A stretch of DNA of 64,000 nt from Sipunculus nudus (taxonomy: Eukaryota; Annelida; Sipuncula; Golfingiida; Sipunculidae), in contig CM049315.1 in assembly GCA_026874595.1 (NCBI GenBank), positions 10,912,664 through 10,976,663 of the forward strand, in the 5' to 3' direction. The notes beneath the pieces were generated by a model. The model ran no database searches and was not told the DNA's origin. It saw nothing but the letters and a program-made list of their open reading frames with translations. Within the stretch, counting starts at the first letter, position 1, and each line of letters opens with the position of its first letter. A program made the translations under genes and the position numbers. Positions 1 to 58,600 of the stretch are shown here, in pieces.

Positions 1-3000
1 GACTGAGAACATCTGTTCTCTTGACGCATACACCATGTGTCAGCTAACATTCATAAGTAAAAAGTAGTTCGGCCAAGGCCAGGCTCCGGGGAATGTTTGT
101 GCACCAGGGCCTCGCCGAATCTGTAATTCTAAGAACACAGTGTCGGAAGAACTGAAGCATCAACAAGTCATAGTGATGGTAACATGTTGTTAGAATCCGA
201 TGCTCAAGATTCTGTGCCTGACAGACAAAACAGATCAGCTCAGATGGTTCACATGGATGTGGTTTTATATCGTGTCAATCTGTAAAACCAGGAGTGGCTT
301 TTTGAGTTTGCCTTAATTCACTATAAATATGAAGGAGTTTGTTACACCAAAATGTGTGAATAAATGCCCAGTCAATATATATATATATGTTAAGACAGTA
401 TAAAAACAACTATATGATTTCTTAAACGCCATTGTTACCCGTCCCATATACGTTTCAGGTAACTGATAACTGCAGGTTTGAAGTTATTATACAATAAACT
501 ACACGTATTAAATTATTTACTGAGTGGGGGGGAGATGCCATGGGAAGGGGGGGGGGGGGGAGCGCTTGTATTTTGAAGCGCGTACATCATGGACAGGCGG
601 AGGGAACGGGCATTGTCCCCAGGCATTTTGTAAGGTTAACTGCATGAGTGCGCGTCAGTAAACATGTCCAGTGAGGTGACTTCAAGTCTATCTGTAAGTA
701 GAACGTTCATGAAAACCCGGATCAGTGAGCACCCTGGACCGGATACTTCAAAGTCGTCTGCTCAGAGAGAAGCAGGATGTGATAGTACCGGTGGGGAAAG
801 TCACTCGAGTTTAAGAACAACAGAGGACAATGTGCAAGAGACAACGTAGTAGTACCCCTAACACTCCATCCATTCATTGGTAATATCTTGTGGTATGGCC
901 AAGCCACATTTGGTCTTATTTCTACTATAAGAACCCTGATAATGCTATCATGGTTTCTTACGGCCGCACGTTTGCCTCTCTGACATATAAGAGACTACCT
1001 TTATGACAAATAAGGCTCAGTGGTATAATTGGAAAACATAATGAGTCATGTTTCAACGACCAAGGTTCATGCTTGACCCAGCTCAGTTTTGTATGTACCA
1101 AAGTATACCATAAACACAATGTTTATTCTGTATATAACATCGTATTGAGCTAATTGATTCATAATTAAAGTCACGATAATGAACCCTTTCATATTATCTG
1201 CGTTGGGGCAGGTCCGTGCAATTCGGTCGTACTCGAAAGGAGAGGGCTTTCTATATGGGCCTAGTTCTCCTGCTGGCGTAGTTTCTTTTAGTTAGGGAAG
1301 CGATAGACCCTTTGCGAAATTTCCCAAATAATATCATATTTATTATGCAGGGTTAATAAAAAGATATGGAAAATGGTCCCCTTAGGACATACTCGTACAC
1401 TTAAAGGGCAAAAGCGGGCTTTTCCGAGGCTTGTTCACGGAAGAGCAGCGTGACACCGATTTGATGTAACCTTCCATATTCAGATATGTTCGTTTGCTGT
1501 TATTTCTACATGAATCCCTAAGGTCACGCCCAGTGGCGACTTTCAGGCATATTCGCATTTAAAGGCCGATAGTCACATGGAAATAACGCAGCTACCATAT
1601 CATGTGAGCGTTCTGATCAGAATGATACGTGTAAATGTTACCACACACACAGTCAAACACGCGGCCCCCCTCGTGCACACATGAGAATAAAGTTCCAGTT
1701 AACCATGTGGCAAAAGTTGATATCTTATTGAAAACCTGTCTGGTTTTCATATATTATATAAATCCCTGTTTCTGGGGACTGGCTCAATTACTTGTGAATT
1801 GAAACAAAATGTCTGTTTTACCATTCTCTTATTGCTATAACTTTTTTTGAATCTGTAATATTCAACTTAATACAATTCATTGTAATCAAGCTCCCTTCTC
1901 GTTCTAACCATACCCCCCCCCCCCAACACACACACACATGCACACACGTACACAGGTACTGTCACGTATAGACAGGCCATGAGCAGGGCTCACCAAACTA
2001 AACATTAAATATAAGGTTATATTTTTTTAAAGGGAGTGTAACTGAAGGATTGTTCCTTGATTCGAACCCCTGTCTGGTTCCATACAAATCCAACGTTCCA
2101 ACCACCATTAAAGCTAGCTTCATGACGATACAGGTATATATGCCCGCCGTTATATATGCCCTCCCCTTACTAAATGCATCCACAAGCATATTTGCGTGAT
2201 GAGTCTTGTGTACGGTTATTTGGAACTCAAAATGTTCATCCACGTTCACGTAGCAGGTCTGGGCCAGCTTGTTTCAGTGAAGGATGAACGCCTGAACGTA
2301 CAGTAACGTTAGTGTTACCCAACCCGCATATCTTTCTATGAGTATCCCACACGTATATGATGTATGTGAATGACCAGCCTGCTATCCCGGGCGCTGACGT
2401 GCTCAGAACTGAATGCTACATTAGTCAAAGTACTTGTATCAATGTCTAACACCTGTGATGCTTCTGTATATACATACTGAACATCATGAATGCTTATATA
2501 CGCTAGTTATATATACTTCCATATACACCTGTGTTATAATGTAAGAAAGTGTCATAAAGTTGTTTAATTTTTAAAAACAAATTTAGAGATGAGTATTATC
2601 CCATATCCAGAGTATATAGGGATTTAGAAGGAATCCATCGTGTCTTGGTTTGGGATTAAGAACAAGAATTTCTGTAAAATGACTTTCTTATAATCTGCTT
2701 AAAACCGATTTGTGACTCGCCACAGCACTTCATGAAGAGTGGATGACTGCATGTTTTTTTTTTTTCATTTAAATATATACTGATCTGTACGTCCGTGTGC
2801 CTCTGTTAAGTTTACTTCTCTGTTCATGTGAGCAAATTATCATCCATCGATGATTTGAAAATATTTTTTAATTATATAAATTAAAAATAAAACTACTCAA
2901 TACAATGGGCTGGCAGGCAAATAACTAAAATTTTGACATGTCTCATCAGGATTTCCTCTGGATATTTTAAACCTTGAAAATCATATTGGAATAAACCACA

Positions 3001-18933: not shown

Positions 18934-21900
18934 TCAACCCAAAGATAACAATATACGTTTCCACTTTTGCTGATGTATTTCTGACTTTTTGTGTTTTTCG
19001 GCAACATTACGTTCCAATCTTTCTAACCTAATCAAATATTTCATAAATATATGAATAGATGGCGGATTTATCTTATCACGATAGGAAAACAGAACAAACT
19101 TAAACATCAACAATAAAATATCTACAATGATCTTATAGGGGAAATTTTTATCACACCCCATATAAATTAAAGCTGGACTCAACCGTGGCATATAAATTCC
19201 AGCACTCTTTGCCCATGCATGTTTTAAGCTGATTATAAAAGGTTTTACTCACATGACACTCGCAGAATATATGTACTACTGACTCATCTTCAATAAAACA
19301 ATATGACCATCTTTTACTATCCATTATTCGCCAGTTGTACAGTTGTTCATTCACCGATAAAATATTAAATAGTACCCTATACTGAAATTGCCGCAGATAC
19401 ATGTCTAAGGTCGTACAATATACATGAATAACTGCCTCATCCCATTTAAAATGGTCACCTAACAGATCATGTAACCTTTCTTTACAAATTGGTTCATATA
19501 GCTTTTTATTAATTACCATCGAATAAACAGTCTTAAACTTCACATTTTCCAAATCAATTTTCGTTTCGTTTACCATCACAATGTTACTCTTCACTTCAAA
19601 GGATTCTATTTCATCTGGAATATTATTTAAAAATATTTCTTGTTTCCATTTCGCGGGTATCGCTTTCTGTACTGATAGCCATGGTAAAAACGTTTTAATA
19701 TACATGGGATTATCTATTGGAACCAAATCTTTTAAATCTTTAACTCTACCATTTTTGTTAAACATCTGAAAGACGTACTTTATACCTAGGTTAGCTATAT
19801 GCATATTAAAAATTGGTCTTTTGTCGACTCTGATACATTTATGGTTCCATACTTGTTGTAAACAAATATTAGCAATTGATTCAGGATTACACATTGTATA
19901 TGACGCCCATGACTGCAAACAGTGAAAATAAAAGGTAGGCAAATTTTTGTCAATATTAGACGGATCAAAATTTGTATCAACATATCTTAAACCACCAATG
20001 CCTCTCAGATATAAGTTTGGTATGACTGTATACTTTGTTTCAAATAAATTCTTTAATCTTACTATCCACATTACTCTTTGACTTTCAATGATAGAAGCTA
20101 TATCCGGCAATCCTATGCCGCCACTTTCTGTCTTACCAATCAATACTTCATACTTGATTTTAGGCCTTCTGCCGTACCATATAAAATCAACAACACAGCT
20201 TTTTATTCGCTTAACAAACTCTCTCGGTGGTTCAATTATATTAACGACATATAATAATTTTGAAATACACATGGATTTCAAGAGAATATTTCTACCAAAA
20301 ATCGTTAGAGATCTAATGTTACACACACTGAGTGTCATTTTCATTTTGTCGTAAATACACTCAAAATTAAGTGAATCGGATAACTTCAGGTTATATGTGT
20401 GCCATATTCCTAATATTTTTATGCCATTTTTATATAAATTAACCCATTTAAAATCTTTGGTGCCAAGTGTATATTCTTTGTTTTTTCCCATATAGGCAGC
20501 TTCACATTTATCATAATTAATCTGTACTGATGAGACTTTCCCAAATTTTTCCAATATATCTATAACCGATTGCATAGACTGAAAATCTTTAAGAAAATAT
20601 GTTGTGTCGTCAGCGAATAGACATTGTTTAATCTCATAGCCGTTGATATCTATGCCTCTAACCGAACTGGAATGACGAACAAGTATTGCCAAAATTTCAA
20701 TGACAAACAGGAATAAATAAGGGGCCAAAGGATCCCCCTGCATGATTCCCCGTTCTAATTTAAAATAGCCAGTATTGTATCCATTGTTTATCACACAGCT
20801 TTCCACGTCAAAGTGTAATAAACGAACCCAGGTTAGAAAATCATGTCCAAAACCAAATCTCTCCAGTGTGGCGAAAAGAAAATTATAATCGATGGAGTCA
20901 AAGGCCGCTGCGAAGTTCGCAGCAAAAATAATAGTGTTTCTATCTTGTAATTTACAGTATTCTAAAATATCAGAAATAAGACGATTAGTGTCAGATATTC
21001 TCCTGCCTTTTATAAATGCGCTCTGATCTTCATGAATTAGTTTTGGAAGAATTGTCTGTATTCGTTTAACTAATACTTTACTTAATATTTTGACATCAAC
21101 ATTTAATAAACTTATTGGCCGCCAAGATGACAGGTGTCTATTGTCCTTGCCTGGTTTCTCTATCAAAGTTATAACGGCTTGTTTTTGACTTGTAGTTAAA
21201 GCTCCATCTCTGAAACACTCATTAAGACAATTTAACAAATCGTCACAAATTAGATCAAAAAAGGTTACATAAAATTCTTTCGGCAGACCGTCGTTCCCCG
21301 GGGTTTTATTATTTTTCATATCTTTTAATGCTATCAATATATCATTCTTTGTGAGTGTACCTTCGCAGCTTAAAATGTCATTTTCAGACAAACGGGGAAC
21401 ATTGACTTTAGAAAGAAAATCAGAGCATTCACGCTCACTGGTATCTGTCTTTCTGGAATACTTTTGTTTGTAAAACAATCTTATTTCTTCCATAATTTCT
21501 TTGGAGCTTGTTAACTCTTTATCCGACTTAATTAATTTCTTAACGGTTGTTCTCGTTTTGTTTTTCCTTGCCATATTTAAAAAAAACCTTAGTATTTCGT
21601 TCCCCTTCTTCAAACCATTCAACACGTGATCTTACTATCTGTCCTGCATTTAAGTTTTCATAATATTCCTCAATTTTCTTTTTAATTTCATTATATATTG
21701 TTTGACTTGATTTTTTGTTTCTTGATAGATTTAACTCTGCATTTTACAGAGCCTTTTCAAGGTTTGACAGTTCCTCCCTCTCTTTTTTCCGCTTTTCTTT
21801 AGAGAATTTAATAGAAAATTCTCGTATTCTAAACTTTAAATATTCCCACCATTGTTTTGCCCCCATATCATTTCTATCCTTGTTCCTCAAACTATTTACG

Positions 21901-22719
21901 TACTCCTTAAATTTACTTATAAACAGAGGGTCCTTTAATAATGATATATTAAGTTTCCAATGTGAAGGCCCATATTCTCGTTCTGGTATCGAGTTAAAGT
22001 GACAAACAACGGCTGAATGATCTGTCAGAATAGCCGGAGCAATCTTTATATTTTTAACATGGGCATTCAGCTCACTATTTAAGAATATGTAATCAAGTCT
22101 GCGCTGCCGCAAAGGGGTTTTTGATCTCCAAGTGTATAGACGTTCATCTGGGTTCCTTATCCTAAACAAGTCAATTAATTCAAACGCTGACATCATATTG
22201 TTAATCAGTTTTACAGATTTAACTTTGGTTTTTAAGCTTGTCTCGTCTGCATCAAGCTCATTCAGACAAACATTAAAATCACCTCCCCATATTTCCTTCA
22301 TTGCAGAGTCAACTTGCAATGAATTAATTTTTTCCCATATATGTTGGTAAAAACGTACTTGCTCTGGCTCTGTATTAGGTGCATACGTATTTATAAATAA
22401 AAAACCATGGCCCTCAACAAGAGCTTTTAGTATTATGTATCTACCATTAATATCAATGTGTCTACTTATTTCTTTAAATTCTAAATTCTTTCCAATCAGG
22501 GTTATTACACCACGAGATAATTTCGTCCCGTGAGAGAAAAAACTAACTCCCTTCCACTGTTTTGTCCATGTTGTTATAAAACTTTCTGTACTGTGCGTCT
22601 CCTGAAGAAAATAACACTGTTGTTTCCTCCTTTATCCAATAACCAGTTGTACATTTCTTGTCTTTTTTCAGTCTCCCTATTCCCCTGACATTTAACGTTA
22701 ATACTGAAAAATTAAACAT
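18934..22719 (-). pseudogene. LINE ORF2 (endonuclease-reverse transcriptase), frameshifted
   Basis: In an active element this protein nicks target DNA and copies the element RNA into it. The frame starts with an ATG at 22719-22717, followed by the endonuclease opening (LTLNVRGIG). Further along come QETHS, INTYAPN, GGDFN and, near 22030, TDHSAV, all hallmarks of APE-type nucleases. The reverse transcriptase lies in an 824-codon open frame at 19151-21625, with RRISDTNRLI, ERGIMQGDPLAPYLF and FADDTTYF. Motif A reads ANFAAAFDSID: the catalytic Asp expected before FAAAF is Asn (codon AAC). The C terminus continues after a frameshift near 19190 to a stop at 18934. Other frameshifts lie near 22670, 22618 and between 21744 and 21625. 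The protein cannot be made intact. Confidence 0.9.
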
Positions 22720-23230
22720 AAAGATTCGGCTTCAGTTATCTTGGATATTTTCATGGCCCGCCAACATATATTACGTACAAAATCACACACATAAATATTC
22801 GGTTTGTTAACAATATCTATCCCCTTGACCAGGTACATCTGAGATAATCTCAAAATATCAACTTTTGTCGTGATAATACAGTAACTGAAGAAAATAACCA
22901 TGCTTATAGTAATAACAAAATTATATATAAGCATATATAGCACTTGGCGCTATTCGATAAAAATTAGATAATGAAGATTATTTTTAAAAAATGAATCAGT
23001 GAATAAAGAATGCGGGAGGTAAAGGTTCAGTGAGAATCAAATGTCACCCGCATCCCTTAAAGAATAGATATAAATACACTGATTTTTTATTACCGAAATG
23101 TGTAGATATATAAGTTGAGACCGGCTCCGGTTTTTTTTTTATATGATTACTCCTCACAATAGCAATACGGGAATATTGAATACAAAATGCAATATGATAC
23201 AGGCAGGCACAAATATTCACGGAGAACGAC

Positions 23231-24159
23231 CTAACTTTCTTGTCCTGGTGTCGACGTTAGTTGTGGATTGGTCTGCATGGCCTCTGAAAATAGCTTTGGC
23301 GGATTTTGTTGTAACACCTGCACCCATGAATAAAATTTACCGCTGCTGTTGAATTTATGACCTTTTGACCCGTGATCCCTAACACACACCTTTCCATCAT
23401 GTGTCCAACAGTCTGTTATAAGTTGCTCTCTTTTCATTCCGAGAGCAGTGTGTAGCATTCCTACTCTGGCTCGAGTGAGGTCCTCGTTGATGTAAATCCC
23501 CCTAGACTCCTCACCTGCCATTTTCAGATGGGATTTCCTTTTAAGTAGAGCTACCTTTGTTTTGTGAGACAAAAACTTAACAAGTATTGGTCTGGATTTA
23601 CCTTGTGGTGCAGGTTTGCCAACTCTGTGAGAGATATCAATATCGTTGGGCTGAATGTCAACATTTAACAGTTCTCTGGGCATGTTTATAACAAGTTTAT
23701 CAGTATCTTCCTCTGTTTTTTTTCTGGCCATGTGTTTGTGATTCTGAGAGAAGTGCGTCTTGAGTATTGTTGTTGTCGGTCCAGTTCATCTTGCATTTCA
23801 CTCAGTTTATTTTCTAAATTGTCCACCTTTTTTGTTAGCTCCTGTATATGGTGTCCATAACATTTCATTCTTTCCTCCACTGCTGCATCTATAATACCTA
23901 TCAAAGCTGATTTAATAGTCTCTGACTGTAAAGCTGTTTCTAAAAGATGTGTAAATTTCTGAGCCTCATCAATAACTAGTATAGGTTCTGTATCTGATTT
24001 CTTTTCCTTAGTATTTAAGCTAGTCAACAGGTATTCCTCTGATGAATTTAAATTATCCATATTGTAACGTTTTCTTTCCTGAAAACTTACAGAGCTACCT
24101 CCTGAAGACTCACTAAGACCTCTTTTCTTTTGGGATATTTTCTGAGACAGACCATACAT
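23231..24159 (-). pseudogene. LINE ORF1 (RNA-binding chaperone-like), one frameshift
   Basis: ORF1 proteins of L1-like elements trimerise through a coiled coil and coat the element RNA. The N-terminal part (24159 to about 23735) has a low-complexity serine-rich head, then a long heptad-like segment rich in E, K and L, then QQQYSRRTSLRI. This last is the usual junction into the RRM-like core. The core continues in another frame (23731-23231) as DTDKLVINMP...DIDISHRVGKP...RPILVKF, typical of L1-type ORF1 cores. One indel near 23735-23745 separates the halves. The ATG at 24159 is the first in frame, about 240 bp from the 5' end of the element. Confidence 0.85.
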
Positions 24160-51312: not shown

Positions 51313-52312
51313 TTTGAATACTTCGATACCAACGTGTACACTCGTATGGAAGAAATACCAAGGTAGTAATGGTCAGCCTTATGGAAAAATTAAACACCAG
51401 CTAGAATCAGGAAATTCTTGAATAACACGCCAGGTTCCGCTCGGTATCAACTATCAAGAGGTTATGTTAGCTGTGTATAAATAGTAACTGAAGTATTTGC
51501 CACGACAAGATAATACCTTAGTCACAAATTATCTCCACTCACACAGTAGAAGGCCGTCTAAAATAATCCTCATATGAGATTTTCTGAAGGAATAATTTTG
51601 TTAATTGTCCACATGTCAGGGTGTCGCTCCAATACACGCTACTTCAACTTCTCCAAAAAGTTGAACGTTTCTATAGAAATTCATGCAGAGTTCAGAGTCA
51701 CCGATCACTTAGATTGTATGTGTAGTCATTATGTCTCTGTCTCTTGACACATGTGCAAATTAAATTATACCACCAATCGTCTTATTTCAAATTAAAACAA
51801 AATCATAATAATCATCATATCGTGCTCGTATATTCAAACAATGAAACCATTTGTTTTGTGAGCAAATCATTAAAATATATGTCATACCAGTTTTATTTTT
51901 GCATTCATCTACGACTCAGCAATCATATCAACCTATATACACAGACAGTATATACAATTTCAGAAGTTCACGCTGAAAAAAAAATGGTTATAACAGACGT
52001 TAACCACTCTTTCTTCGATACCTTGAAATAATACCGGGAGAAACATTGTCTACTGAAATTTAGTATGATTTTCACCCACCAGATGTCACTCAGTAAAGCT
52101 AAACTTTACAAAAGGCGAAATCAGGAGGTCCATGGAAAATGATAGATAAAAACGCACAAATCGTTTTTTAACCAGAAATCTTTGACAACAGGATATGTTT
52201 TACATCTAAGTCTGCCCAACAATGCAGGTAATACTTTGTTAATGAAACCTGTTAATTCTGACAAACCTAATTGGCTGCGGAGCTAATGGCTGGGGAAAAT
52301 GAAACATGGCAC
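51311..52312. other. Non-coding stretch
   Basis: No supported gene or clear repeat. Confidence 0.4.
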
Positions 52313-52467
52313 TGTTACGAACAAAAATTGTTCAGGGGAAAAACTTGGCCGATCCGGTATTCGAACACAGGTCGGTGACGCACAAGTCCGGCGTACCAAC
52401 CGCTTCGCCAGCAAAGCAGGCTTCACTCGCAAGACAGTTCGGTCCGCTTTTATGTCACCCCGTAACA
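52313..52467 (-). repeat. TRIM copy 1, LTR (3' LTR in minus orientation)
   Basis: 155 bp, TG...CA ends with 7-bp inverted TGTTACG/CGTAACA. The tRNA-like module is decayed: the B box reads GTTCGAATACC. Confidence 0.75.
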
Positions 52468-52586
52468 CATTTCCTCTTAAGAGCGTTCTGCTATCAGAAC
52501 AAGACTAATTATCCCAGGAGTCACACTTTGGTGAGCTTATTCCCTGGGCCACAAAGTTAACCGTCACGTTAGACGAGCCCCCATTT

Positions 52587-52725
52587 TGTTATGAAGACAA
52601 ATTATTGAGGGGAAAAATCCTGGGCCGATCCGGGAGTCGAACCCAGGTCGGTGGCGCACAAGTCCGGCGTACCAACCGCTTCGCTAGCAAAGCAGTTCGG
52701 TCCACTTTTAAGGCACCGCGTAACA
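52587..52725 (-). repeat. TRIM copy 1, LTR (5' LTR in minus orientation)
   Basis: Begins TGTTATG and ends CGTAACA on the plus strand. The A and B boxes are intact, 43 bp apart start to start. A ~16-bp segment after the A-box side is missing compared with the other LTRs. Confidence 0.75.
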
Positions 52726-53730
52726 GCGCGCAAAACCAACATCACGACAATGGAACTGATGAATTTCGACAGATCTAATAAATTCTTTAAAGGTAAAAGA
52801 TCTGGTTGAAAATAATATAAAACAAAACCAACACGCCAAACCAGTCTCCTTTAAGCATTGATGACATCTCCAGCCCCCCCCCCCCCCCCCCCCATGATTT
52901 TGTCCATTGATTCAATTACATTTAAGCAAACCGATAATGCTAGCACAACCAAGTTGTCCTAATACCAAAATTGCAGTGGTTTGAATGCTCGATTACATGC
53001 TTACATGTAGGAGAGCGAGGACAAAACTCATGACAAAACAGAAAAAAATTACAGTATTACAATAAAACCGAAAACTGACAGCAAATCCATAACATTACAC
53101 ACTCAATGTATCTCAAGGGTCTATAAAATTAATTGATATTTTCAACAAGATTTAATAAATTAATTGGACCCAACTACTTCAACGTATGAGCATGTGACCA
53201 AAACTACAAGGCAGTTACAAATCAGCTGAGAACTGATCTGCCCTTAATATATAACACGAGTATAGTAATGAGAGCAGAGCATCGTGAGACCGAAAACGTT
53301 TTGAATTCTACAAACTTATATAACATATGGAAGACAGAAAAAAGAGAGACACTGTTTAACCCGTCTACCACATATTAAAACGTCACAAAAAACCTCTGAT
53401 ATATGTATAATACATATACATGTATAACAAACATGTTATTCCTTGAACAAGTCATACCAATTCTCAGTTGGTTTTCACAACAACTGCTTTATCCATTGCA
53501 CTCCCTTCAAATTACAAAGGGAGGTAACTCATTCATTGGCTGACTGAACTTTCCACAGGTCAAATATTTAGAACCCATCTGACTTTTTGAGCTCTGGTCA
53601 CGTGATCAGCTATTCATCATAAGTTGCAGCAGTGATCCCTGCTTTTTCCATGGACCTTGAGCTTACGAACTCGCCGTACAAATTACATGTTGAATGGTCA
53701 GTGTAATGGCATCAATACCATGTCGGTGTG
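52726..53730. other. Non-coding stretch, includes the receptor gene 3' flank
   Basis: It holds a 19-base C run near 52876-52894. It presumably contains the 3' untranslated region of the receptor gene, but I could not place a polyadenylation signal with confidence. Confidence 0.4.
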
Positions 53731-54281
53731 TTATAGCACGGGCTTAAAGAGACGGACAAACCCGAGAATACATGCTGTAGGCACAATGATAAAAAACAAA
53801 AACAGCCAGAAGAAGAAACGGTCCACGATTTCAGCAACTTCCTTCCACTCATTCCTCGGCGGAGGTTCTTCCCCCTCAGAGCATGAGCATGATTTCAGTT
53901 TGCTGCGCTCGGGTGTTTGGTTCATGGCCTCCACGTGTGAGTTCTCTACCACATGAGACGGCTTCTTATTAAGAAGTTCCACCTCGACTTCTTCTTGTAA
54001 AGCAAATGAATTGTTTCTATTGGCGTGTTTGCTGTCGTTCTCGTTTGCCTCTCGCCATGAAGCACGTGACCTGCATATAGCGTTACTTTTGGTCATCAGT
54101 CTCTTTTTGTACTTATAGTCTGGGTTATCCATGCGCATGACCTTTGTCATGACGTTAAATACAATGAAGCGGAGCCATCTTGGCGGTTTGTTGTCCGCTG
54201 ATTGAAAGTGCATCTTAATAACGAGTACGGAGGCCGCCACGGACAGGGTAGTCGCCATCATGAAATAAGTAAGGTATATGG
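53731..54281 (-). CDS. Receptor gene last exon: TM3, cytoplasmic loop, TM4
   Basis: Preceded by ttttgtatttcag. It completes TM3 (AIYLTYFMMATTLSVAASVL), then the conserved post-TM3 PPRWLRF helix start, a charged loop with a CSCSEGEE patch, the pre-TM4 helix WKEVAEIVDRFFFW and TM4 (LFLFFIIVPTACILGF). It ends FKPVL and stop TAA at 53731-53733. Confidence 0.9.
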
Positions 54282-55570
54282 CTGAAATACAAAATAAAAA
54301 TATTCAGATATTGCAGAGAATTTTGAGATATTAATATATATATATATAGTAAACGTCCAGTCTGTCATCCGAAAGGAAAATGCTAAACATCCGACAATCG
54401 ACAAAGACAGCACTAAATAACGTAAACGGGTATTCGACGAAGACTGTTTTTCCTTTTGAAAACCACATTTAGATGCACACTGAGATTCAGGGACTCGGTT
54501 AGTTTGTATAACGCTGTGCGTTATGTGTACCTTTTGTCTTTGATATTGCCCATACAACTAGTGTGTGATAATGACGGAGAAATTGATGTAAGTACTGATT
54601 ATTGTTTTTAATCAATTTTTTTGTTTAAATTTAAATTTCACTTATTAAGTTTACTTGCATGAGTTGAAAGTGCATCTCAGAACGATACAAAAGAACACAA
54701 AAAAGGTTGTGACACTAGCTACGTTTGTAATCATCCAATTTATCTGGTTTTAAATATGGAGTAACAACGTATCTCTCACAATCAAGATATGCGTATTCCT
54801 GAATGAACACAAGATGGCGCTGGGATGCAAATGAAGTATTACCGTAATTAATACTGTAGCGCCCAATAAGTAACGAATTCCTCACCTATGATAGGTATGG
54901 CATCGGAGGTGTCTGGAACATTGCTAGCGACAAGGAGAAGAAACACAGATATGGACACAAGGATGGATACACCCAAGGAAACTTTCTCCCCCGAATCCGC
55001 GGGAAGCATAAATATGGTCAAAAGTACCCCACTCAGCATCAAGCACGGAAGTAAAATATACATGAAATAAAACGTGTACTTTCGCCGGATGTAGATAGTG
55101 AAATAAACCTCCGGGAAACTCTCATCTTGGTAATATTTGTATATCATGTTGATGCCCTTGACGTCAGTTTTTAATATTTCCCACTCCCCGTGTTGTATGT
55201 AGGTGTCCAGGCCTACGTAGTCTAATGAGCTGGTCAAATTCACTTTGTCTGCCGTGTAAACCCAGGTTTCGATCTCCATGGTACATTTTTGATCATCGAA
55301 CGGATAGAAGTTCATGTCCAGAGCACAGGCAATAGCGAACACGCCCCCTGGCTGCCAGCGGGCCTCTCCGTTATTCCGCACGGTAATCCAGAAACGCTTA
55401 TAGTGGTCCGAGTCAAACAGCCTGTTGGCGCTGTAACGAATAAAAAAAAAAAAAATTTTTATCAATAACATTTGTTAACGACAAATAACATTATCATCGG
55501 TCTGTATCAAAATGATACATTAACAAAAGAAAATTAAATTACATACACTAAACATTCTATATACATATAT

Positions 55571-55627
<57 letters not shown>

Positions 55628-58600
55628 ATTTTATCATACATTCATAGATTACGTTTCATTTGTGAAATAGTAACTCTGATGATAAAATCTCATACTCTTC
55701 ATTCTTCGCGTTCGATTTTCATAGTAAAAGTATGCAAATTGTTACGAAGACAAATAAATGAGGGAAAAATCCCGGGCCGATTTGGGAGTCGAACCCAGGT
55801 TGGTGGCGCACAAGTCCTGCGTACCAACCGCTTCGCTAGAAAAGCAAGCTTTACTAGCGAGACAGTTTGGTCCACTTTCATGTCACCCCGTAACACACCC
55901 CCTCTTAAGAGCGTTCTGCTATCAGAACAAGACTAATTATCCCATGAGTCACTCTTTGGTGAGCTTATTCCCTGGGCCACAAAGTTAACCGTCACGTTGG
56001 ACGAGCCCCCATTTTGTTACGAAGGCAAATAAATGAGGGGAAAATCCTGGGCCGATCCGGGAGTCGAACCCAGGTCGGTGGCGCACAAGTCCGGCGTACC
56101 AACCGCTTCGCTAGAAAAGCAAGCTTTAACTGGCGAGACAGTTCGGTCCGCTTTTATGTCACCCTTTAACAAAATGCATACAGATTTTTGTTGCGAAGTC
56201 CTTAGTCATGCGAACATAAATGAATGCTTCAAACAATGACCCGCAAAATTGATCAAAATGGAAACTGTACATATATACATTAACAGAATGAAACATATTA
56301 GCTGTAGAACACTTAAGCTCCCACACAGAGTAAGGTTTCCGGAAGATAATGTCCCACAGCAATTGTGGCTACTCTGTTTAGCTCCTTTTAAACAAGCCGA
56401 CCTTTTTTATGATGCTCTTTTCACTTATTTAGCAGATTTATCTGGACCTCCTTATAATTCTTAGGAGAAAGCAATGCTTGATAAATACCCAGTCACACAC
56501 CTGGTTGAAATATATACAGAATTTGAGTGAAGATCGTTCTGTAAGGCGACCTCTGGCGGAGATAGTTACACACCCACCTGTTACCAATAGCGAGTTTGGG
56601 AACCCACATCCTCCGGGGGTCAAGGACGAGTGACGTCAACCCGCCGTAATCCGAGGCATTCCACACTAAGAACTCATCCTTCCACTCCTGCCGGGCGATA
56701 ATAGGTTAAAATTCAGACACGTACGTTACCAGCAACTGGTCACAACTGCTGTCCTACTAAACAATGAACTAATCATAATCCCTAGTAAGGGTGTCATTTT
56801 CTAATATTCGGTTGTTTACTAATTGGTGATTTTTTTTTGGCCTTAGTAGAAAACAATTTGAATGTATGATGAAAATTGTGTCCATTATTTACAATATATC
56901 TAACCAATGTCCAACATTATCATAGGCAATAAATTGGGATTGTCTTGGGTCTAGAACTTATAAAAAATATATGGCAATGAAGATAGCTTGGAATGCGACT
57001 CGTTCTAGTGTCCAGATGAGATAACTGAGTCCCGAGAACTCCATACTCCCCACTGAATAGTTGAGAAGCATGTATTATTTTGAATAAATAAATGTAATAC
57101 TTTGTCTTAGTTGGAATAACCTGTGGAGAATACTTATAGGAAATGAAACTTTCATGCATAAATTTTGTTTCTTTCTCAGATTGCATTTTTTCCATATCTG
57201 CTATGTTTGGAACTATCATGTGTTTTTTACAGGCCTGAACATGCAAGATAAATATGGTTTTCTTCCAAGATCTTATGCCAGAAGTCCTGGATAACATGTT
57301 TAATCACGATGATTTCTACATCCACTTTGCTGTAAATTGACAAAATACATAGCAAAATCGTGAAATATATAAGCAACAACACTTGTATTAAGACAGATAT
57401 GTACGTGTGCAAAATTAAGTGATCAGTAACTGAAAAAAGGCTTTATCAGGTAAAATGAAACAACCACCGCAAGATGATAAGGAGAAACCTTTAAAATTCA
57501 ATCCCTTGTTCTAATAAATATCTGCAGCAATCCTGAAGAAGTTGTTCGGCCAATTTGTAATTTCTCATAGAAGCAGAATTGTACGTGACAAACGGTGACT
57601 TTTTGTTCTTTCTTGACATATTTAAAGATATCAGGCTATCAGGCTTGAGTACACTTTCATGAATGCCATATACAATTCATACAATTGTCGAAAGATGGCG
57701 CCACCGAATTGATCAACTGGATTAATACATAATTATGCAATATATCCAAAACTTTGTGAAACACTACATGTACAGCCATTGCAGAGAAAAAAACTATTTG
57801 TGTCTTTATTTGCCAACATAGACTATAATTAAGTCCGGTTGAAAGAAATGTCTGCGACAATTTTGAAAAAAAAAAATCCCGAAAAATATGCACGTATACA
57901 AAAAATACAGCGAGAATCTGTCCACCATTGCTGGGGTGAAGAAGAGGAGCTGAAGTGGACGATTATTACATAAAACACCGTTTAAAATCACTGAAGCCGC
58001 TATTATTATTCAGGGTATACCAAAGCGGGCTCTTCAGGGTTTTACATATCTGGTTGGATTCAAATTTCTGCTCATAACAAAAGCCTCCCGTATCTTAATG
58101 TCGAAAGGGATATGAATCCTCCATCAGGGGCTGTTTATATGACCCCAGTTGTGGGTAATGTTTTTTAGGTGGTTCTACCGGGTTGGGCCTTTTAACACGT
58201 TTCTCATTACGGATGGCGGTGAACAGGGATGAGAATTGAAGGATCTTCATTTGTTTCCATCGTAACTTGTTACGAATAAATTTAGCACATTTGTTGCAGA
58301 AAAATGCTACGTGGACACAAGTGTTTGCGTAGGAAGAACTTGCCTTAAGGGACTTAGTTTCTGTTTAGATTTTTTAGCCCAATGTGGTACTTCAAATGGC
58401 TACTTTATTTCTTACAAAGGCCACAGGTGAGATGAGGTGTTGATCATTACGTTAGGATGGTGATCATAATGCGAGATTGCGATCGGCCCGTGTAAATATG
58501 ACTATACTAGTGACTGGATGTCAAGTACCGCTTAAAATATCCATGAGCACTGGGGCCGCTGTACTGGGACCCATTCATGAGCTGGGCTGGTGCGGCTAGA

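Follow-up and report, generated by a model that had tools for sequence, protein, structure and literature searches.

Helenus elements (TRIMp3), a kind of terminal-repeat retrotransposon in miniature (TRIM), were described by Kojima in 2024, with 51 families in pteriomorph bivalves (PMC10886601). The accessible portion of that paper reports that tRNA-Pro is among the primers matched by bivalve Helenus primer sites, that seven families are able to encode a tRNA-Thr, and that the A and B boxes are conserved across divergent families; it bases its proposal of Gypsy partners for animal Helenus solely on similar primer sites, and finds no complementarity between the tRNA-like part of the long terminal repeat (LTR) and the primer binding site. 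Here we analysed a window of 64,000 nucleotides of Sipunculus nudus (assembly GCA_026874595.1, contig CM049315.1, positions 10,912,664 to 10,976,663), numbered from its first base, in which a 432-bp element, E1, had been noticed from the sequence. Judged by its anatomy against the published description, E1 is a Helenus-type element and so of a known kind; the original prediction knew of no standard description in molluscs but could not exclude one, and the bivalve families are such a description. We propose, with a probability of about 0.84, that Helenus in this genome is a TRIM transcribed by RNA polymerase III (Pol III), primed by tRNA-Pro and moved by a Gmr1-like Gypsy element with a 4-bp target-site duplication.

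Anatomy of E1 and its tRNA-like repeats

Repeat comparison identified E1 as a complete copy on the reverse strand (55740..56171). LTR alignment gave a 5′ LTR of 157 bp (56015..56171) and a 3′ LTR of 156 bp (55740..55895), both with TG...CA ends; of the 156 aligned bases 143 agree and 13 differ. In sense order the element consists of an LTR (TGTTA...CGTAACA), the spacer AAA, the primer binding site TGGGGGCTCGTCC, the remaining internal part, the polypurine tract AAGAGGGGGTG and the second LTR. The 13-nt primer site (55999..56011) lies 3 nt inside the 5′ LTR and is complementary to the 3′ end of what we take to be tRNA-Pro, while AAGAGGGGGTG ends the 119-bp internal domain (55896..56014) and directly adjoins the 3′ LTR. 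The target-site duplication AAAT is found at 55736..55739 and 56172..56175, and the target together with its flanks is palindromic (GTATGC-AAAT-GCATAC). A scan of the window for open reading frames (ORFs) found no stop-to-stop ORF of at least 120 amino acids overlapping E1.

Each LTR carries an A box and a B box, 43 bp apart from start to start: TAGCGAAGCGG at 56103..56113 (derived from LTR position 59) and GGTTCGACTCC at 56060..56070 in the 5′ LTR, and the same two motifs at 55828..55838 (also derived) and 55785..55795 in the 3′ LTR. Both boxes are near the consensus. The A box of the window family reads TAGCG, without the fifth-position Y typical of most Helenus. The boxes are followed by a T run, of four T in the 5′ LTR (TTTT, a candidate Pol III terminator, at 56041..56044 as derived from LTR position 128) and five in the 3′ LTR. 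The direct repeats with their TG...CA ends, the AAAT duplication, the tRNA-Pro-type primer site and polypurine tract beside opposite LTRs, the lack of coding capacity, and the boxes with their T run had all been claimed in the original prediction and were all recovered at E1; its reading of a miniature LTR retrotransposon with a tRNA-like Pol III-type promoter sequence in the LTRs is supported by this anatomy and by the genomic copies described below.

A recognisable tRNA was not recovered from the LTR, where a tRNA search had been suggested. Neither ARAGORN with default settings and the bacterial code nor Rfam at its gathering threshold detected a tRNA in the window, and Rfam at E up to 1 found nothing in 52000-56500; at E up to 10, two weak matches were obtained in 55960-56200, one of them to the tRNA-like mascRNA-menRNA (E 1.7, sense strand). 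With relaxed settings ARAGORN returned noise for the window, and neither program supports a working tRNA in the LTR there. Among the 42 LTRs scored for the cloverleaf (the other 30 of the 72 were unscored), only the T arm showed good pairing, and the triplet at the anticodon place, read by eye, is TGT (Thr). On 99 loci with a full 18-nt tRNA-Pro site, default ARAGORN called one LTR, in L063, as tRNA-Thr(TGT).

Genomic copies, the proposed Gypsy partner and hybrids

The 1.43-Gb assembly containing the window was searched with E1. Scoring of 40 of 3555 first-look candidates (3555 is not a copy count) gave 60 matches, and 30 loci (L001-L030) were fetched, among which L017 and L025 were dropped as parts of the same arrays as L009 and L004. 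The 28 distinct copies are the best matches to E1 and not a random sample. All read as LTR-internal-LTR units or arrays thereof, and primer site and polypurine tract are present; one end of L005 is truncated, and L006 is without the first two LTR bases. An exact 4-bp duplication was found in 17 of the 28, and at least three of four letters agree in 25, compared with means of 1.7 (maximum 7) and 6.3 (maximum 13), respectively, in 5000 trials with cross-paired flanks; exact flank repeats were commonest at length 4. The duplications, primer site and polypurine tract seen at E1 were therefore borne out across the genome.

The two LTRs differ by 0.6-9.6% in 20 simple copies, and the single LTR difference of L007 suggests recent activity. 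Arrays contain three to six LTRs with a period near 275 bp, and the outer ends of arrays L012, L018, L021 and L027 carry exact duplications, that of L018 inside an AT repeat. When LTRs were clustered by element, the nearest neighbour was the own partner for 8 of 40 LTRs, which is uninformative. An exact LTR-core pattern had 0 matches in viral_contigs and 0 in genome_contigs, no copy was present in eight 5-kb stretches at chosen round coordinates, and beside the 30 loci only fragments at L005 were found. In L058 and L068 the Helenus LTRs go with another internal domain, longer at about 155-160 bp, which suggests a second Helenus family within the same genome.

The full 18-nt tRNA-Pro site occurs at 529 genomic places, and its reversed control at 0. 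The first 100 of the 529 listed, on contigs C1-C3, were examined and sorted by fixed thresholds: 38 lead from a Gypsy LTR to a Gypsy body and 21 from a Helenus LTR to a Helenus internal domain, and the others were 15 neither, 13 'H-', 5 '-H', 4 '-G', 3 'HG' and 1 'G-'. The labels fold-back, tRNA-bearing and partial hybrid used below are our own reading of the 13 'H-' rows. The Gypsy LTRs, 751-816 bp at the five loci measured, start with TGTTACAG and in most finish with CGTAACA, and TGTTAC...CGTAACA ends are common to Gypsy and Helenus; they are followed by the spacer TAAAAT and the identical 18-nt primer site, and a Helenus-like purine tract was seen in two Gypsy copies. In the one degenerate copy examined for domains, L069, the integrase (rve, 513-872) stands ahead of the reverse transcriptase (RVT_1, 1457-2119) and RNase H (2472-2744); gag was identified by eye from a zinc-knuckle-like motif. 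An integrase upstream of the reverse transcriptase is the order given as defining Gmr1 in the portions of PMC8220671 and PMC6238403 available, and by the domain order of this copy the partner is Gmr1-like. A gypsy-type candidate partner with matching primer site and LTR ends, for which the original prediction suggested looking, is thus present.

The 12 commonest primer-site forms in L001-L030 (38 sites) include TGGGGGCTCGTCT 20 times and TGGGGGCTCGTCC six times. These two forms are complementary to tRNA-Pro over 12-13 nt only, and other subfamilies keep 18 nt. The persistence of a 12-nt primer site through copying of the primer is puzzling.

At three of the 100 places (L044, L115 and L136) a Helenus LTR is joined via the primer site to a Gypsy body, and L048 has a partial fourth joint of this type, seen by eye over a short stretch. 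The converse joint, Gypsy LTR to Helenus body, was seen by eye in L081 (labelled '-H') and was upheld in the wider stretch L140. This hybrid comprises a Gypsy LTR (694 bp), TAAAAT, the primer site, a Helenus internal domain and a Helenus LTR, 969 bp in total, and is flanked by the exact duplication AATT/AATT. Because this duplication surrounds the whole hybrid, L140 most likely formed before integration and integrated as a unit. Extension of L044 (C44) revealed a Gypsy 3′ LTR at its end and an AT repeat on both sides; in L136 extended (L142), a Helenus part of LTR-internal-LTR is followed by the primer site, Gypsy body and Gypsy LTR. L115 extended (L141) begins with a Helenus LTR, the primer site, a short Gypsy 5′ part and a partial Gypsy LTR, and continues with the opposite joint, in which TAAAAT and the primer site lead into a Helenus internal domain and a Helenus LTR. 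In L140, C44 and L142 the two outermost LTRs are of different parentage, and the spacer goes with the 5′ LTR in L140 and L115 (unclear in L044, L048 and L136); both features fit a transfer of plus-strand strong-stop DNA from one element to the minus strand of the other via the primer site.

Possible primer-tRNA copies, fold-backs and the proposed mechanism

Past the primer site, L095 and L097 share an extension, with 18 of the first 20 bases identical, that is absent from the Helenus and Gypsy sequences examined and reads as the complement of what we presume to be tRNA-Pro. In L097 the tRNA-Pro-like stretch, with the CCA complement, measures about 63 nt and is followed by a partial Helenus LTR, and the copy has the exact duplication ATAC; L095 ends near the anticodon loop. 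Relaxed ARAGORN called L097 as tRNA-Pro(TGG). The tRNA-Pro-like copy in L097 departs from the expected T loop at positions 56 and 58.

At eight places (L051/L052, L057, L078, L102, L108, L127 and L133) the primer site leads into an inverted Helenus LTR at its T arm. Seven of these fold-backs are independent; L051 and L052 are near-identical and 2.85 kb apart. Exact duplications surround L051 (TGGC), L102 (CCTT), L127 (ACAG) and L133 (AGGA), and L057 and L078 are without clear ends. Eight bases of the LTR complementary to the primer-site 3′ end were found in 14 of 31 full-site LTRs and in 5 of 72 window-type LTRs, and at least eight in 0.2% of shuffled LTRs (the 72 window-type LTRs shuffled). 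In addition, L046/L047 (C1:7856979-7857056) comprises tandem partial LTRs, each meeting the primer site at the T-arm CCGG(G)ATCGG in direct orientation.

Seven aberrant copies were picked as assessable for flanking duplications (L051, L102, L127, L133, L097, L140 and L108), with L057, L078, L046/L047, L095/L143, C44, L141 and L142 outside this set. Six of the seven are exact, a result reached in 1 of 5040 pairings, the observed one (exact permutation).

In retroviral reverse transcription, according to the portion of PMC13191261 available, 1-methyladenosine at tRNA position 58 (m1A58) ends plus-strand strong-stop DNA after 18 nt of primer sequence; tRNA-Pro carries m1A58, synthesis continues without it, and a minor stop lies at position 37. 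The trapped-primer and fold-back cases appear to fit this picture of stop and read-through. The change at position 58 in L097 may fit read-through at m1A58, and a later mutation is equally possible.

The LTR anatomy, the duplications, the primer-site hybrids and the tRNA-Pro-like read-on in two places are all read directly from the DNA; from these we infer strand transfer and mis-annealing, and we propose Pol III transcription and co-packaging. Pol III would initiate shortly before the A box of the 5′ LTR and, on passing the T run there, terminate at the T run of the 3′ LTR. The resulting RNA would measure roughly 360 nt, and the tRNA-like part, about 85 nt long, would form the repeated region R at each end. 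This RNA would be co-packaged with the RNA of the Gmr1-like Gypsy having matching ends; tRNA-Pro would prime, and the Gypsy enzymes would reverse transcribe the RNA and integrate the product with a 4-bp duplication. Plus-strand strong-stop DNA transferred between co-packaged molecules would yield hybrids, and a primer-site copy wrongly annealed to the T-arm-like part of the LTR would yield fold-back elements. We also incline, with more reserve, to the view that the LTR tRNA is more than a promoter: its T arm may mimic that of the primer tRNA, so that strong-stop DNA that has copied the primer mis-anneals into fold-backs which the integrase accepts, and correct transfer that goes between molecules would give the hybrids. 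In the window-type subfamily both halves of this T-arm/primer-site complementarity would be mostly lost.

Several observations weigh against these proposals. The T run of the 5′ LTR could end Pol III transcription early, so a full-length RNA needs read-through; and within the family the boxes show no greater conservation than the rest of the LTR (permutation p 0.25), so their conservation is no evidence there. The window-type primer site matches tRNA-Pro over just 12-13 nt. The name tRNA-Pro comes from the expected tRNA sequence and from a relaxed ARAGORN run in which 12 sequences yielded 23 calls, many plainly spurious, and Rfam at E up to 1 found no tRNA in L095, L097, L051 or L063, leaving the tRNA-Thr call in the last unconfirmed. 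Gypsy gag pieces match no Pfam family. An exact duplication was testable in one hybrid alone, L140, and is the AT-rich AATT; the 5′ ends of L141 and L142 are damaged and neither shows a clean duplication, and C44 lies in an AT repeat. L095/L143 is without duplication, and the flanks of fold-back L108 agree at one of four letters.

The copies might merely resemble LTR elements and be tRNA-derived short interspersed elements (SINEs), or tandem SINEs moved by a long interspersed element (LINE). The tRNA-like head with A and B boxes and the tandem arrays with their period near 275 bp would suit this explanation, but we consider it highly improbable: exact 4-bp duplications lie at the outer ends, also around arrays L012, L021 and L027, the primer site, polypurine tract and TG...CA ends are present, and the flanks listed for the fetched copies show no consistent A tail. 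A plain SINE is ruled out by the exact duplications in 17 of 28 copies, and the single units with A-tail and variable ends that the original prediction named as its mark were not what the 28 copies showed. That the hybrids arose later, when integrated copies recombined as DNA at their common 18-nt site, and so are uninformative on co-packaging, is unlikely in our judgement, even though the site is identical in both elements and C44, L141 and L142 have no clean duplication. The exact duplication encloses the whole of L140, the outer LTRs of L140, C44 and L142 derive from different parents (plus-strand transfer predicts L140 and C44), and four fold-backs and one tRNA-bearing copy have exact duplications as well.

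Transcription by RNA polymerase II (Pol II), as in ordinary TRIMs, with the tRNA-like part a decayed passenger, has a better chance than recombination and is still doubtful. In its favour, the LTR has an AT-rich stretch resembling CATAAAAG around position 14-21, Pol III could be halted by the T run within the 5′ LTR, and the cloverleaf is gone save for the T arm (42 of 72 LTRs scored). Set against this, a sense-strand polyadenylation signal (AATAAA/ATTAAA) occurs in 1 of 72 LTRs, whereas a T run of at least four within 35 nt after the B box occurs in 61 of 72; both boxes are close to consensus, and their conservation across divergent families was reported by Kojima (PMC10886601, accessible portion).

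If the T arm of the LTR does mimic that of the primer tRNA as suggested above, the genome keeps integrated fossils of single reverse-transcription steps, which would record the identity of the partner and of the primer, mis-transfer, and read-through beyond the end of the primer site. The two-LTR hybrids, one within an exact duplication, are direct sequence evidence for one partner and shared reverse transcription. Through the apparent trapped primer copy and the T-arm fold-backs, the second strand transfer of an LTR retrotransposon could be read from genome sequence with no other data, and they hint that an LTR pays a cost for containing a tRNA.

Window surroundings and known systems

A second copy, E2, which the original prediction had not mentioned, was found on the same strand at 52313..52725, with LTRs 52587-52725 and 52313-52467, an internal domain (52468-52586) identical to that of E1 at 113 of 119 positions, and a primer binding site at 52571..52583 (12 of 13 matching). 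Its LTRs show 15 differences over 136 aligned bases, 18-19 bp are deleted from the 5′ LTR, and the flanks GCAC/GCGC agree at three of four letters. Between E1 and E2, in the region 53731-55474 and on the same strand as both, lie two exon pieces (54848-55423 and 53734-54303) of a Cys-loop ligand-gated channel gene (Pfam PF02931, PF02932); E1 is upstream of these pieces and E2 beyond them. A degenerate match to the LTR profile at 2052-2134 (reverse strand, 20.7 bits), with the B box GGTTCGAATCA, is perhaps an old Helenus LTR from another family; among 100 simulated windows, 69 had any match and the best scored 9.2 bits. A LINE-like run of ORFs with an RVT_1 reverse transcriptase lies at 19151-24159 (reverse strand), its endonuclease match falling just below the Pfam cut-off.

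Cassandra of plants is likewise a TRIM that forms tandem arrays and whose LTRs contain a Pol III-type promoter (PMC7215508), but it carries 5S rRNA sequence whereas E1 carries tRNA-like sequence; membership of Cassandra was rejected, as Rfam finds no family in the window at the gathering threshold and, in 52000-56500, nothing at E up to 1. The biv-TRIM elements are TRIMs from bivalves with tandem copies (PMC6934838), and differ in having terminal direct repeats of 202-218 bp and an inner domain of 77-80 bp (156/157 bp and 119 bp in E1), GGGGAGA as the polypurine tract in most (AAGAGGGGGTG in E1) and no unambiguous primer site, which is clear in E1. Membership was rejected because the sizes differ and because the inner segment TGATCCCAAAGGAC is not in the E1 internal sequence by eye. 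The partner resembles Gmr1-like Gypsy in its integrase upstream of the reverse transcriptase (one copy; PMC8220671, PMC6238403).

Among the papers listed by a literature search, mostly without subscription journals, no other named Helenus or TRIMp3, none dealt with this kind of element, and nothing appeared on Helenus hybrids, trapped primer tRNA or fold-backs. The present elements differ from Helenus as described in the accessible text of PMC10886601 by these three kinds of copy, of which that text has none, and by the 8-nt complementarity between LTR and primer site (14 of 31 full-site LTRs), where that text has none either. They agree with it in being short LTR elements without coding capacity (432 bp here), in LTRs that each contain a tRNA-derived part bearing A and B boxes, in the primer site and polypurine tract bounding the internal part, in the 4-bp target-site duplication of the animal families (17 of 28 exact here), and in the tRNA-Pro primer sites, the tandem arrays (LTR-11_DR) and the proposed Gypsy partner.
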